Below are positions 22,001 through 59,328 of a stretch of DNA of 64,000 nucleotides, in pieces; positions within the stretch are counted from its first letter, which is position 1, and every line of letters begins with the position of its first letter. The position numbers were made by a program, and so were the translations under genes. The notes beneath the pieces were generated by a model. The model saw only the letters and a list, made by a program, of their open reading frames with translations, did not search any database and had not been told where the DNA came from. The stretch is from Exophiala sp. HKRS030 (Eukaryota > Ascomycota > Eurotiomycetes > Chaetothyriales > Herpotrichiellaceae). The stretch is from the NCBI GenBank assembly GCA_023897205.1, contig JAHWDD010000007.1, positions 3,348,001 to 3,412,000 on the forward strand, given 5' to 3'.

Positions 22001-24447
22001 TGACCCACGATAGCCATCATCTGGGCAATATTGATGGTTGAACCTTTGGAGCCGGCACGGGCCATAGTGATAGCATTGTTGAGATCTTTCAAGCTGTCTT
22101 CCGTTGCAGTACCAGCTTGGTCACGCGCTTGATTGAGTGCATTCATGACTTTGCTCTCGAATGTCTGGCGCACGTTCATTCCGGGAGCGGGTTCAAGCTC
22201 TTCGTTGTAAGCGAGAGCAGAGATTTCCTCGACTTCTTTCTTCTTCGAGTCAATGGCATACTGAACTTTCTCGACGGTCTGCTGATCAGGAACCGTGTCC
22301 CCAACACCAATACTGAAGCCGTTATGTAATAGCCAATAGTTGATGACAGTTTGTGCACCATTGAAGAAAGCCATGGCAGCCTCATGTCCGAACTCATTGA
22401 AGATGGTATGAATAATACCACCTGCACTTGTACCGACGAACTTCTTGCTGAAAAGACCGAACATCAAGTTGCCATCAAGAACCATCAAGCCAGTATCGTT
22501 TGTAGGTACGTATGGGTCTTCACCCTTCGCATCCAATCGCTCAAGGTTGAGTTGTGCTGGGAGTACCATGCTGATCATTTGCTTACCCGACCAGCGGGCT
22601 GTAGGCTTGATGATTGCAGGCTGTGGAATCACCCCGTCCCAGTCAGGAACCCAAAGCATAACATTCATGACTTGTTCTCGGTTCAAGAAGACATCTCGGC
22701 GGCAAATCTTGTAGATTCCAGCAAGAGTATCTTGTACAATGCCCATCAAAGGACCATTGCGTTGTGGTGACACAATGTTGAGTGGCACCATGCAGAGGTT
22801 GGCCAATTCGGCTCGAGACTCCTCACTCTGAGGCACGTGCAAATTCATTTCATCACCATCAAAATCGGCGTTGTATGGCGTCGTGACTGACAGGTTGAGT
22901 CGGAAGGTAGAATAAGGCATGACGCGAACGCGATGAGCCATCATAGATTCCTTGTGCAGCGACGGCTGACGATTGAAAAGGATTACATCGCCATCCTGGA
23001 TGTGGCGTTCAACTTTCCAGCCATACTGCAGATTCAGTTCTCCAGAGCGTTTGTGATGTCGTAGATCAATTCTCTCACCAGTGTCGCGAATGACATATCG
23101 CGCACCTGGGTGCTCGGTGGGACCGTTGGCAACCAGACGTTTAAGCTTTTCAATGTTGAAAGGCGTCACAGTCTCTGGGTAAGTCAAGGTACGGGCGATG
23201 CTTCGTGGAACACCAACTTCATCCAAGGATAAGTTGGGGTCACCAGTGATGACTGTACGTGCAGAGAAGTCGACACGCTTGCCCATGAGATTTTGGCGTA
23301 GTCTGCCCTCTTTGCCCTTCAGTCGAGCTCGAATAGACTTGATCGGTCTCCCACTCTTGTGCTGAGCTTTATCCAAGCCGGCGATTTCGTTGTCCATGTA
23401 GGTGGCGATGTGGTATTGAAGAAGGTCCTGGAGATCAACTTTGATATGATCTGGAGTGCCATCCACTTCGGTACGCAGGACGGCTTGGTTTGCACGGATA
23501 ATATCACCCAGCTTGAACGTAAGATCGTCTTCGCCACGAGAACCTTGTCCACTTCCGTCGACACTGATGCTGGGTCGAACGGGTGGAGGTGGGACTGGAA
23601 GTGAGGACAAGATCATCCACTCCGGTCGGGCGTAGTCCACACTCAATCCCATCTGTTCCAAAGTCTCGTCCGTCAGTGTACGGAAAGTTCGCAAGACCTC
23701 TGTAGGGAAGATTCGCTTTTTGTCCGGGGTGATGTCCTCGTCATCTTCTCCTTTGCGTGCCTTCCAGGTGGCCCACAACTGCAAGCCCGTTCTTCTGATT
23801 TCTGGCTGTGCATTGCCACAACCACCGTGCTTAGGTGCAGCTGGAGCCTTCAACGGCTGATCAGGATCCTCGGGAGGATCGGCTTCACAGATCAATCTAG
23901 GCTTACTCAATCTCCATACCTCTTCAAAGCGTCTCTTCTTGTCTCGGAGAGAAATGGCGTGTCGGAGTTCCTCAGACTGGTTCGAGAATTGTTAGCATAA
24001 CGCACAAGGAAATTATTAGTGAGTTGGTAGACCAACATCAAGAGCCTTGATTTTGCCACAATTGTGGCAGACTGTCTCCAGAATCTTTTTGACTCGAGCC
24101 ATGAAGCCATAATGATAGACGGGAGTGGCTAGCTTGATGACTCCAAAATGGCCAGGACACTCAGCCATGTTTTCTTCACAAGTGTTGCACTTGAAATTGC
24201 GATCGATTGTTCCAAGATGAGGATCGTTCGGACCTTTCTCTCGAGGTCTGAGGCGTTGCTCATCCCTGAATCAAATGTCAGAAAAACATATCAATGGATT
24301 GGTTTTATTATCTACATACATCGTCTCAGGATATTCGATGTCGATGACCGCGAGGCGTTCGGATTCTTTGGCCGAGAAGAGGCCAAACCGAATTTCTTCA
24401 ACGGTGCGCACAGGCGCGCTCGAGTATGCGAAATTGAGGTTCGCCAT
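19051..24447 (-). CDS. RPB1: DNA-directed RNA polymerase II largest subunit
   Basis: Catalytic largest subunit of RNA polymerase II, 1760 residues, nuclear. Exons (minus) are 24447-24320, 24265-24037 and 23976-19051; the introns are 24266-24319 (GTATGT...TCAG) and 23977-24036 (GTTGGT...CCAG). The N-terminus [19 protein letters not shown] is typical. Zinc-binding [16 protein letters not shown] and [11 protein letters not shown] lie in exon 2. The Mg-binding catalytic loop [12 protein letters not shown] is near residue 485. [18 protein letters not shown] is the trigger-loop region. The C-terminal domain from about residue 1550 has roughly 25 heptads. The first ones are degenerate ([21 protein letters not shown]), later ones are canonical YSPTSPS-type, with TSP and glycine-rich spacers in between. 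No frameshift was seen in 5.3 kb of coding sequence. Confidence 0.98.
19060..19700 (-). repeat. CTD heptapeptide-coding repeat
   Basis: Tandem 21-nt repeats encoding YSPTSPx variants at the C-terminus of RPB1. Units are interrupted by TSP triplets ([10 protein letters not shown]) and short Gly/Ala spacers. They are the landing platform for CTD kinases and phosphatases, including the SSU72 product encoded at 59329-60359. Confidence 0.95.
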
Positions 24448-55735: not shown

Positions 55736-57433
55736 TCATTCGGACTCGCCGTTTTCTTTCCCATCCACTTGTCCTTTCCGATCGAGTTCCTTGTGATGCT
55801 GATCAATCCCTTCCTGCCCAAATCCTTTTTGTCTTCCGAGCTCATCAAGGGACATGGATACAATCAAGTCTTGTCCGAACTTTAATTCCACGCCAGCCTT
55901 TGTGAAGAATATAACCGTCTTTTCGTTGTTCCCCAACGCCGAGAGACAGTCTTTCCTCACCTTCCACGGTACCAAAAACTTGAGCGCACGTCTCTCTTCC
56001 GACAAGTGCAGTGAGACATACCCTCTTGCCGTGAGTGTCACCTCCTCTCCATCCCAAAATTCTTTGAATTCAAACCCATATCTGACAGCATTTCGGCGGC
56101 GATTAGCTGAAGCGAATTTCCCCGACTGTCGCAAACTTTGGGAGATGCTGTCATCGATTTTGGTACGAAGAGCCCTGGCAACGGACTGGCCTGAGTCGAG
56201 CAGCTTGAAAACATCCTCGTGCAGCATCGTACTGGCCCAGCCCAGGAAGGCAGAATCGTATTCGAGGACTGTGAGTGTTCTCTTGAGGTCTGCTTCCAAT
56301 TTGACGTACTCGTGCACTTCTTTGAGTGGAGCGCTGCCTGGTATACCCTTTCGAAATTTTGCTTGTGTCTCGCTGAAAGACATTTGGTCGTGCGGGATGG
56401 CTAAAAGCCACATCAAGAAGTTCAGAGAAGCATCCAATCGTACAGAGACTTGGCCAGCAGTATTCGGGTTGAACATCATTACCGATGGATGGTCGACAAA
56501 CGCTGTTACACGCCGCACATTTTGGTCTTCGAAGAGAACTTCAAAGGTGATTGACGCACCATCTCCAAGTTTGACATTCAGATCTTTGGCCGAATGTTTT
56601 CTGCCTTTTTGATATTGCTCTCTCGCACAACGCCCGCCAATGATCAGGAAAGGGAGTGGCAAGATCTCCAGAATCCGGTGAGACATCTGGTTATGCAACC
56701 AGAGCTTTTCCTTCTTCCATTGTGAGGCAGGACAAGTCGATTTCCGTCCTCGTGCCCGACCCTCTCCTCTCCAATGCCAATCATACGCAAAAACAACATC
56801 CTGGTTCAAGCCCTTTTTGGAAAGCAGTTGAATGGTCGGGCTGCCTTCGTCCCAGAAATGGCTAACTCCACCCTCTTTCGACTGACAGTGTAGTATTGGT
56901 CCAAGGTCGTTATCCGGATCACCCGCAGGTTGTGCAATTCCATTCACGTCCTCTTGGGTAAGGCTTATCTCTTGTGTACGGAAATTTTCGATCTCGTGGG
57001 TCAGCAGTTGTCGAACTTCCGTCGTATTATGGTCCGTGTCTTTCTCTTGAAGAAAACAAATAAACGAATCCAGCTCCTTCGCATCAAGCCCCAGGACCAC
57101 TTCTCTGGCGAATTGTAAAGCGACATCCGAGCCTCCAAGACTGATTCCTTTCCAGGGTTCTTCTGAGCCCATGGTCTCTTGAGAAACTGGGTTCAATTTG
57201 TGTTCAGGGTTGAAGTTGTTTGAAGCATGGGCTTGTCCAGTGTCAGTCGTCGAAGAATTTTGTCTATTGCGTTTTCGATGTGTTGCAATGTCGGGCTCGG
57301 TTCTCTGTCTTCTCTGTTTCATTTTGGAGGAGCGGAAGTTGCAAAGATTTTCATACACAAAGCTCACGATATCACCGCCCTTTCCGGACTCCAGGCACTC
57401 TGCTGAGTGGACCAGAGACGAGGAGGCCTGCAT
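55736..57433 (-). CDS. Uncharacterised fungal protein, 565 residues
   Basis: Long single-exon open frame with consistent protein-like composition; ATG 57433 gives MQASSSLVHSAECLESGK. I do not recognise the family. The N-terminal about 90 residues are basic and probably disordered (KMKQRRQRTEPDIATHRKRN looks like a nuclear localisation signal). The middle contains HFWDEGSPTIQLLSKKGLNQ, VFAYDWHWRGEGRARGRKS and a hydrophobic stretch (RILEILPLPFLIIGG). The C-terminal half, with alternating hydrophobics and charged helices (LRTKIDDSISQSLRQSGKFA), ends in a very acidic/basic mixed tail (KELDRKGQVDGKENGESE). No signal peptide. A short helix LQFAREVVLGLDAKELDSFI could be structural. No frameshift or intron is evident. 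Confidence 0.6.
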   Translation of the reverse strand: MQASSSLVHSAECLESGKGGDIVSFVYENLCNFRSSKMKQRRQRTEPDIATHRKRNRQNSSTTDTGQAHASNNFNPEHKLNPVSQETMGSEEPWKGISLGGSDVALQFAREVVLGLDAKELDSFICFLQEKDTDHNTTEVRQLLTHEIENFRTQEISLTQEDVNGIAQPAGDPDNDLGPILHCQSKEGGVSHFWDEGSPTIQLLSKKGLNQDVVFAYDWHWRGEGRARGRKSTCPASQWKKEKLWLHNQMSHRILEILPLPFLIIGGRCAREQYQKGRKHSAKDLNVKLGDGASITFEVLFEDQNVRRVTAFVDHPSVMMFNPNTAGQVSVRLDASLNFLMWLLAIPHDQMSFSETQAKFRKGIPGSAPLKEVHEYVKLEADLKRTLTVLEYDSAFLGWASTMLHEDVFKLLDSGQSVARALRTKIDDSISQSLRQSGKFASANRRRNAVRYGFEFKEFWDGEEVTLTARGYVSLHLSEERRALKFLVPWKVRKDCLSALGNNEKTVIFFTKAGVELKFGQDLIVSMSLDELGRQKGFGQEGIDQHHKELDRKGQVDGKENGESE

Positions 57434-57945
57434 GATATCAAATGCACACAGCAGGGAGCGGAAGGATTGAGATGACAATGGTGACAGAAATAGGAATGAG
57501 AATGGAACTGGAATTGGAAGAGATGTGGGCGTACAACCTCACCACGACGAGCGATCAAAATAGGCGGCGAAAGATTCACTTGAATTGGGAAACAGTGCAG
57601 GCAGTCTTCGACTCACCGTTCAGGACTGGCAGTGTCTGGAAGACAAGCAACTTCACCAAGGCTCGGCAGTGAATGAACCACACCGGTAACGTTGCTTTGT
57701 CGGGTTTGAACTGCACATCGAGATTGATGCATTGTACGACTCCTTATCGTGTGGACTTGTGGTGAAATATACTATGCACTGAAATCTAAGCATAGATATA
57801 ACTTTTAATAACACGTCTGCTACCGCCAAGCTTTGGCCAACGAACCTTGATTTTCAATGTATCAGGGCTGCTCGCGAAGCAATAAATCTCAACGCAAAGA
57901 ATATGAAACTCCACCGCCTCCTACGCAAACCCAAAAAATAGAAAC
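57434..57945. other. Intergenic between the unknown gene and the tRNA
   Basis: Promoter side of the gene ending at 57433 and the 3' flank of the tRNA. No other feature recognised. Confidence 0.45.
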
Positions 57946-57951
57946 AAAAAA
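57946..57951 (-). terminator. RNA polymerase III terminator (T6)
   Basis: Six consecutive T on the minus strand, starting five bases after the discriminator base of the tRNA-Phe. This is a normal polymerase III stop signal and argues that the tRNA is a pol III unit. Confidence 0.85.
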
Positions 57952-57992
57952 GTGACTGCGGCCACTGTGGATTGAACACAGGACTTTAACAT

Positions 57993-58010
57993 TTGGTGAA
58001 CCGAAGTATA
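57993..58010 (-). other. Canonical tRNA intron (position 37/38)
   Basis: Eighteen bases beginning TATACTTCGG directly after G37, at the standard eukaryotic tRNA intron site. The CTTC can pair with the GAAG of the anticodon loop, as needed by the tRNA splicing endonuclease. Confidence 0.8.
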
Positions 58011-58019
58011 CTTCAGTCT

Positions 58020-58070
58020 CTGCGAAGAGTTAGATGATGATGATAGACGAATATCTCAAGTTATACTTAC
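58020..58070 (-). other. Insert II in tRNA-Phe: spliceosomal-type intron, 51 nt
   Basis: Starts GTAAGTAT (ideal 5' splice site), carries CATCTAACTC (CTAAC branch site) 11 nt before the end and finishes CTTCGCAG. It lies between tRNA positions 28 and 29. Length and signals match the protein-gene introns of this window. The A28 left by the GT-AG junction pairs with U42. Confidence 0.75.
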
Positions 58071-58083
58071 TACGCTCTCCCAA

Positions 58084-58132
58084 CTATTCCTAGTGTTAGG
58101 AAGTGAAAATTTTGGCGAAAGTAGGCTCTTAC
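58084..58132 (-). other. Insert I in tRNA-Phe: spliceosomal-type intron, 49 nt
   Basis: Starts GTAAGAGC, carries TTCCTAACAC (CTAAC branch site) and ends GGAATAG. Exact removal joins TAGCTCAG to TTGGGAGAGC, the universal tRNA-Phe D-arm sequence and the pol III A box. An earlier AG (CACTAG) would leave six extra bases, so the second AG fits better. Confidence 0.75.
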
Positions 58133-58147
58133 CTGAGCTATAGCCGC

Positions 58148-59328
58148 ATGCTTCTTGTTGGAGTGAATTCGTTCATTTTATTATATAATCAAGTGAATAA
58201 TTACTGCCATAAATTACCCGGACACGTGATATTAGCTTGCGGCTGTGGGGTCAGAGTAGTAGGTTGGCCGAGTACCTAGCTAGTTTTGTCGACTCCGTAG
58301 GCCAAGGCACCTACACGATATACCCTGCCTCGCCTACAGCTTAGGCAGTGAGCCTTATCCGACTACTTTAAGACTACCAAGGTACCTAAGATGTTCACGG
58401 ATGTTCTTACAGATGCTAACATCGTCCTTGGCTCATGAGATCTCCGATTGGCGGCTAACACTGCACTGCTACACCTTGCAAGCATCTAACAAATAAGCAC
58501 TTGATGGTAAAAAGTACGTTAGAAGACTTTAGCAAACAGACACTAAATCAGGAGCCTTGTATGATATTGTAGAGGAAATCCCGGAAGGGAACCGAGCTTC
58601 CTGCAGCCGCCGTCGCTGAGCGCTGAGAGTAAGAGCCGCGAGATCTATGTCAAGGCATTAGATCTTCTGACCTCTGCTCACCATTCCAAACGAAGTCGTC
58701 GTCCAAAAGAACTTTTGTATTTACACCTTTAGGGGCCTCTATCCTCCCTGGAATTTTGAGCTGACCTTGTAACTTTGAATATCTCGGGCTTAGACGCCTT
58801 GCGTAACTGTGAACTGTTGCCATACACGATTCTGGATACCCTCATCCGGTCCTTCAGCCTTCCCCTTGTTCTTTCCTTGGCACAGCCTCGTCCACCAGCC
58901 AACTTCCGCAGCCCTGTGGAATTTTCAGCCTTGCACTTACAACTTTGGCCTCTCCACATTTCGCACGTTCACTACATCCACCACACCTACCACACTCACA
59001 ACGCTTACAACGCTTACAACGCTTACAACAGTATCTAAGGTCATAGATCTTACAGACCTCGACTTGTCAGATCAACCCTAAAAGGTACGTCTGCCGTCAT
59101 CTGCAGTAGCCTAAGCACTTTGTCTCTATCTTATTCCGTGATGATCAATTTATTGGAGCTGTCCTAATTCACCTTGAGGATACTTCATAATACGCAAAAT
59201 ATACAACCAATCTGAATCGTATCATCGTCTCCCAATATCCCAACTAAATTACAAATACTGGCCACTGACTCTCCTCTCGCTGTAGCAGAAAATCGTCATG
59301 ATTTGTTGAACCCATTGAACCAACTACA
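58148..59328. other. Intergenic between tRNA-Phe and SSU72
   Basis: About 1.2 kb. The first part has TACCTAGCTAG and CCAAGGTACCTAAG words. The rest is probably the SSU72 promoter and leader, with open frames on the plus strand at 58775-59081 that look like leader sequence rather than a gene. Confidence 0.5.
58998..59030 (+). repeat. ACAACGCTT nine-base tandem repeat
   Basis: Three full units plus part of a fourth, upstream of SSU72. Confidence 0.9.

Follow-up and report, generated by a model that had tools for sequence, protein, structure and literature searches.

Introduction

Introns between nucleotides 37 and 38 of nuclear tRNAs (the 37/38 position) are excised by the tRNA endonuclease, and U6 snRNA is a product of RNA polymerase III (Pol III). 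By published account, nuclear tRNA introns occur at 37/38 and nowhere else (PMC3978253), and reviews treat other tRNA insertions as rare or pseudogenic, with nucleomorphs and one red alga as exceptions (PMC3978253, PMC4090602). In Cyanidioschyzon merolae and in the Guillardia theta nucleomorph, tRNA introns at ectopic positions are attributed to the tRNA endonuclease (PMC3978253, PMC4090602). The U6 snRNA of Schizosaccharomyces pombe has an mRNA-type intron which is removed from a Pol III transcript by the spliceosome (PMC8917221), so a Pol III transcript can be a spliceosome substrate. Fungal U3 snoRNA introns have GT-AG or GC-AG ends and an RCTRAY branch motif, average 92 nt and rarely occur two to a gene (PMC5832005). 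Lichen-fungus rDNA has ectopic spliceosomal introns, and one of these, of 57 bp, was removed by yeast from its Pol I transcripts (PMC8527467).

Within the open PubMed Central literature we found spliceosomal introns reported for no nuclear tRNA gene. This agrees with the preliminary description of the locus studied here, which knew of no established nuclear case. The apparent mRNA-type introns in tRNA genes of many isotypes that we describe below seem to be unreported within the open literature searched.

Results

A tRNA-Phe gene with two additional inserts

The window, meaning the whole 64,000-nt stretch of DNA that was analysed, contains a tRNA-Phe(GAA) gene on the minus strand with the following parts.

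58176..58187, minus strand: TATATAATAAAA, possible TATA element, about 30-40 nt upstream of the tRNA-Phe gene
57957..58147, minus strand: tRNA-Phe(GAA) gene with its complete precursor of 191 nt; the joined form is tRNA-Phe(gaa) by ARAGORN
58133..58147, minus strand: exon 1, tRNA nt 1-15, GCGGCTATAGCTCAG
58084..58132, minus strand: spliceosomal-type intron 1, 49 nt, GTAAGA...CCTAAC...TAG, branch A 58096, after nt 15
58071..58083, minus strand: exon 2, tRNA nt 16-28, TTGGGAGAGCGTA
58020..58070, minus strand: spliceosomal-type intron 2, 51 nt, GTAAGT...TCTAAC...CAG, branch A 58030, after nt 28
58011..58019, minus strand: exon 3, tRNA nt 29-37, anticodon GAA, AGACTGAAG
57993..58010, minus strand: canonical-type 37/38 tRNA intron, 18 nt, after nt 37
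57957..57992, minus strand: exon 4, tRNA nt 38-73, ATGTTAAAGTCCTGTGTTCAATCCACAGTGGCCGCA, with intact B box core GTTCAATCC
57946..57951, minus strand: T6 run, judged from the sequence a likely Pol III terminator, beginning six bases past the gene end

The preliminary description had reported two inserts, 49 nt after nucleotide 15 and 51 nt after nucleotide 28, with GTAAG, CTAAC and AG signals, as well as an 18-nt intron at 37/38. We found all three in the sequence, the last at 58010-57993. It had further claimed that removal of the inserts gives a standard 73-nt tRNA-Phe(GAA). This stands in part: the joined form is 73 nt long, is called as tRNA-Phe by ARAGORN and pairs 7/7 in the acceptor stem, 4/4 in the D stem and 5/5 in the T stem. 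However, the anticodon stem pairs 4/5, with a G30-G40 mismatch (27-31 TAAGA against 39-43 TGTTA) that had been overlooked. Given this mismatch the window copy may be weak or decaying, and is perhaps weaker than either of the other two tRNA-Phe genes that we found.

In the unspliced window no tRNA was reported by ARAGORN under default settings or by Rfam cmscan at gathering scores. When introns of up to 200 nt were allowed, ARAGORN named the unspliced gene as a tRNA-Val. Insert 1 can be placed in three ways that leave the same product and insert 2 in one way, and exactly one placement of each is GT-AG. The position of intron 1 is common to both other tRNA-Phe genes found (L054 and L154), and the position of intron 2 is that of the third L054 intron. 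The single GT-AG placement of each insert, together with the same signals and shared positions in two other tRNA-Phe genes, suggests that the inserts are more than chance.

We also considered and rejected group I and group II introns; the window gene gave no match to either in Rfam at gathering scores, and 47-65 nt, the length range of the whole intron set below, is too short for such an intron. The 580-aa ORF adjoining the tRNA gene (window 55736-57478, minus strand) matched no Pfam family at E 0.001.

Spliceosomal-type introns in 25 tRNA genes of one genome

The genome searched was one assembly of 59.8 Mb in 50 contigs. For one window protein, the named homologues with the best scores come from Exophiala, Capronia and Rhinocladiella (best named identity 72%), genera of the Chaetothyriales, and on this one protein the fungus most likely belongs to that order. 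The Rfam tRNA model, with 63 of 1707 candidates scored, gave 42 hits (L006-L008, L009-L047), of which 35 have by our own reading a canonical-position intron of 7 to about 53 nt. Two of the 42, both tRNA-Arg(TCT), carry a GTAAG..CTAAY..AG insert at the same place in the variable loop, each with a different sequence. A tRNA-Phe pattern returned seven matches. Two were tRNA genes, namely the window gene and L054, which has three spliceosomal-type inserts plus a 37/38 intron; the other five form only 2-3/5 T-stem pairs and were rejected as tRNA genes. A third tRNA-Phe gene, L154, has one GC-AG and one GT-AG intron. Patterns for the T arm with a following T run gave 85, 39, 40 and 21 matches, all of which were listed; reading the DNA upstream of the tRNA-like ones then yielded the remaining interrupted genes, L154 among them. 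The loop pattern CTBTCA for Glu and Asp gave 40 matches, none of which looked like a Glu or Asp gene on visual inspection, since the loop reads TTGTCA in the Asp genes found and TTCTCA in the Glu gene L119. A further Asp pattern gave three tRNA-Asp genes among 100 of its 104 matches, all three interrupted.

These searches found 31 spliceosomal-type introns in 25 tRNA genes and one in a U6 gene, 32 introns in all. We count about 75 credible tRNA genes: the 42 Rfam-model hits, 23 further interrupted genes (window gene included) and 10 uninterrupted pattern finds judged by eye only (L088, L119, L121, L133, L135, L138, L139, L146, L148, L151). Of these, about a third (25 of about 75, in an incomplete repertoire) are interrupted, and no Lys-CTT, Trp or Glu-TTC gene was found in these non-exhaustive searches. 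The proposal of spliceosomal-type introns in a nuclear tRNA gene thus gains support and, on sequence grounds, appears to extend to 25 genes; the preliminary description had suggested a search of other tRNAs for GTAAGT...CTAAC...AG inserts, and the 31 introns in the same genome are its outcome. It had also named several intact tRNA-Phe genes elsewhere, taken together with a lack of spliced RNA, as the mark of a pseudogene. As to intact genes, the opposite was found within the reach of the searches, as L054 and L154 also carry such introns.

Every copy found of several isotypes is interrupted. This is so for tRNA-Phe (3/3) and complete tRNA-Asp genes (3/3), a fourth Asp locus (L099) being a 3' part with its own insert, and also for Arg-TCT (2/2), Ala-AGC (2/2) and the single Lys-TTT, Gly-TCC and Leu-CAA genes. 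The anticodon GAA serves the Phe codons, and GTC serves those for Asp. An intact tRNA-Phe gene would be expected to score in the Rfam-model search and to surface in the tRNA-Phe pattern, neither of which proves absence.

Left out of the counts were L147 (Arg-TCG, TT..AG first intron), L149 (Thr-like, doubtful 5' half), L099, L122/L158 (3' part of an Asn-like gene), the tRNA-like elements L129/L130/L134, the five tRNA-Phe pattern matches, and pattern matches with an unpaired T arm or acceptor or judged by eye not to be tRNA. L147 (G000:C4:2955510-2955950) resembles a tRNA-Arg(TCG) gene with two inserts, one starting TTGAGT and then one of the form GTGAGT..CTAAT..TAG; the first perhaps has a broken splice site. 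At G000:C2:904800-905500 (L157; also L099/L105) an interrupted tRNA-Asp gene is closely followed downstream by a further tRNA-Asp 3' part. This part has a GTATGT..CTAAT..TAG insert of its own in the anticodon stem, and the arrangement looks like a partial tandem duplication. L129 and L130 (G000:C6:3268950-3270950) are clustered tRNA-like elements whose ends, of the GGCGATA/TGTCGCC type, pair with each other across about 160-280 nt. No GT-AG inserts were recognised in these two, which are possibly tRNA-derived repeats; L134 has only the T arm type in common with them.

Splice signals and intron positions

We found that 31 of the 32 introns have GT-AG ends and one has GC-AG ends, and that position +5 is G in 31/32. 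The branch motif YTNAY is present in 32/32, with CTAAY within the last 25 nt in 30/32, and the branch A (that of CTAAY where present) lies 9-19 nt before the intron end. Intron length is 47-65 nt. Endonuclease-type introns in the same genes served as a control: 0/22 have the form GY..AG and 1/22 has CTAAY. Pro-AGG L127 has a 37/38 intron that this control set leaves out. For L116, L140 and L156 the 3' end in the set is 1-2 bases off the end in the joined form, while the starts are unaffected.

The 32 introns have 80 placements that would leave the same product, and for each intron exactly one is GY-AG. The chance product for these placements is roughly 10^-57, a figure that assumes independent introns and ignores that such signals were sought.

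The preliminary description had likened the inserts to coding introns of the window, which holds for the two compared, both from RPB1.

24266..24319, minus strand: RPB1 coding intron, 54 nt, GTATGT..CTGAC..CAG; the downstream ORF was identified as RPB1
23977..24036, minus strand: RPB1 coding intron, 60 nt, GTTGGT..CTAAC..CAG

These two, the only coding introns compared, resemble the tRNA-gene introns in size and signals, and the second begins GTTGGT as does the first L054 intron. Several features of U2-type introns were found together: GT-AG or GC-AG ends with an extended 5' site, a branch motif, a restored product and likeness to coding introns (the two of RPB1).

The 31 tRNA introns lie after nt 15 (eight), nt 45 (four), nt 17, 24 and 28 (three each) and nt 14 (two), with single cases after nt 11, 12, 19, 22, 23, 26, 31 and 53. 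The nt-15 intron occurs in all three tRNA-Phe genes and the nt-28 intron in two of them and in Lys-TTT. AG precedes the intron in 10 of the 32. Sixteen of the 31 follow nt 11-19, inside the A box or bordering on it. None of the 31 lies in the B box, which is partly by construction because the patterns required an intact T loop; the same applies to the T runs.

Sequence similarity between introns at shared positions was weighed against shuffled sequences, which reach the observed alignment score in 97/500 and 460/500 trials for the pairs of the window gene and L054 and in 22/500 for the Arg-TCT pair. The Arg-TCT pair may retain a trace of common origin. Introns that share a position and have largely unrelated bodies suggest that the signals are kept and the rest diverges. 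Introner-like copying was rejected: no intron family was seen, and the best all-against-all BLAST match of the 32 introns spans 13 nt (E 8.5e-4) in the branch region.

Joined products and copies without the intron

ARAGORN gave the expected isotype for the joined forms of 25/25 genes and for the precursors of 1/25 with introns of up to 200 nt allowed. The joined forms show a cloverleaf, anticodon and invariant bases (with the 4/5 anticodon stem in the window gene), and keep 508 of 525 stem pairs. Of the 17 misses, 11 fall in the D stem, never more than one per gene, so that this stem stands at 3/4 in 11/25 joined tRNAs. The weak members are Ala L118 (T stem 4/5, irregular T arm), Asn L137 and Ala L115 (acceptor 6/7), and His L116 and Met L152 (anticodon stem 4/5).

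For seven interrupted genes the same genome also contains copies with no intron, and comparison with these supports the intron boundaries independently. Joined Pro-CGG L096 is identical to L088 at 71/72 nt, Pro-AGG L127 to L135 at 70/72 and Leu-TAA L140 to L037 at 83/84; the matches are weaker for Asn (69/74), Cys (63/72), Ser-GCT (66/81) and Ile-AAT (61/74). The three tRNA-Asp genes yield one identical 72-nt product, with the intron after nt 17 in L105 and after nt 24 in L117 and L131. Among the three Phe copies and the two Arg-TCT copies the acceptor stems differ, yet each pairs 7/7.

Other small RNA genes and upstream elements

One U6 gene (L161, G000:C5:2143871-2144024) has a 53-nt GTTCGT..CTAAC..CAG intron at a site that is empty in L160 (G000:C5:5283494-5283592), the only other U6 gene found, which has no intron. 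The 5S rRNA genes have no insert in 20/20 hits of 120-124 nt (47 of 2940 candidates scored), and no 5.8S rRNA reached threshold in the assembly (39 of 1936 candidates scored). TATA-like words occur upstream of 8 of the 25 interrupted tRNA genes, and so no common upstream element is established.

Discussion

Our data suggest, with a probability of about 0.9, that the two window inserts are ordinary U2-type spliceosomal introns removed by the spliceosome and that they are one case of a genome-wide set. For the interrupted genes in general, transcription by Pol III is likely. Pol III would use the intact B box, aided by the A box remnant and in some genes by an upstream TATA element, and would stop at the T run. 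The spliceosome would read GTAAGT/CTAAC/CAG on the tRNA precursor as it does on a pre-mRNA and join the exons. Cloverleaf folding and end processing would follow only then, and tRNA endonuclease and ligase would afterwards excise the 37/38 intron. We place spliceosomal joining before the 37/38 cut because the tRNA endonuclease requires a folded tRNA. Against this reading are the G30-G40 mismatch of the window copy, the weak pairs of some other members, the TT..AG insert of L147 and the uninterrupted 5S rRNA, and it is drawn from one genome and from non-exhaustive gene searches.

The consequence would be that the spliceosome is an obligatory tRNA processor here: a second class of tRNA intron would have spread through roughly one in three of the tRNA genes found, all tRNA-Phe and tRNA-Asp genes would depend on the spliceosome, and single precursors would pass through both spliceosome and tRNA endonuclease. 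We regard this as likely. The window copy itself probably yields a working tRNA. If the introns are spliced, translation depends on the spliceosome directly and not only through its mRNAs, and short Pol III transcripts would be broadly usable as spliceosome substrates. The copies without the intron in the same genome would offer a natural system for the study of intron gain. In such a genome tRNA finders may miss or misname essential tRNA genes, as the ARAGORN result for precursors (1/25 right) illustrates.

The alternative that survives best overlaps with this one: the introns are spliceosomal and removed by the spliceosome, and the functional precursors are Pol II transcripts, either independent or read-through. 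Splicing by the spliceosome normally goes with Pol II transcription, and the 16 of 31 introns inside or bordering the A box fit such an origin. However, the genes have close T runs and an intact B box. Our pattern searches demanded both, but the two Arg-TCT genes came from the Rfam-model search, which made no such demand, and they too have a T run and an intact B box. The U6 snRNA of S. pombe, spliced by the spliceosome as a Pol III product (PMC8917221), also speaks against this alternative, and we consider Pol II precursors unlikely.

Could the interrupted loci instead be dead tRNA copies with incidental inserts, in a cell that relies on intact genes elsewhere? The G30-G40 mismatch of the window gene and the weak pair in a few other members are what such decay might leave, a review states that eukaryotic tRNA genes with insertions at odd positions are usually taken as pseudogenes (PMC4090602), and the gene searches were non-exhaustive (63/1707 candidates for the Rfam tRNA model). 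Yet 508/525 stem pairs hold, and the acceptor stems that differ among the Phe and Arg-TCT copies still pair 7/7. All three Phe, three complete Asp, two Arg-TCT and two Ala-AGC genes found are interrupted, and decay would not yield GY-AG ends with a branch motif in 32/32 introns. We therefore hold dead copies to be very improbable.

Just as hard to credit, and placed slightly lower, is the idea that the inserts are endonuclease-type (bulge-helix-bulge) introns at odd positions, as in C. merolae and cryptophyte nucleomorphs. Ectopic tRNA introns do exist, several per gene, and many of those in nucleomorphs have no defined bulge-helix-bulge (PMC3978253, PMC4090602). Guillardia introns, as given in the cited source, are 3-24 nt long (PMC4090602), whereas those found here are 47-65 nt with GT, +5 G, CTAAY and AG. 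The 37/38 introns of the same genes have no GY..AG in 22/22 cases, and all 31 spliceosomal-type tRNA introns lie away from 37/38 (after nt 11-53), the position at which the separate endonuclease-type introns do lie. An assembly or annotation artefact can practically be dismissed, as 25 separate loci have one signal set and differing insert sequences.

How, then, do U2-type introns in tRNA genes compare with the described systems? The proposed case shares with S. pombe U6 a spliceosomal intron carried by a short transcript of Pol III, and one U6 gene of this genome has such an intron too. The difference is that the hosts here are tRNA genes of many isotypes with up to three introns each, most of which also have an endonuclease-type intron. 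Lichen rDNA introns are similar as spliceosomal introns in a non-mRNA gene, but they belong to rRNA and to Pol I. C. merolae and the G. theta nucleomorph also have more than one intron per tRNA gene, outside 37/38 (PMC3978253, PMC4090602). In contrast to the introns found here, the cited parts of these sources mention no GT-AG ends or branch site for them, and in Guillardia they measure 3-24 nt. Fungal U3 snoRNA introns have similar consensus motifs and likewise occur with intron-bearing and intron-less copies within one genome (PMC5832005), but in contrast to the tRNA genes described here they concern one RNA family, average 92 nt and rarely number two (PMC5832005).
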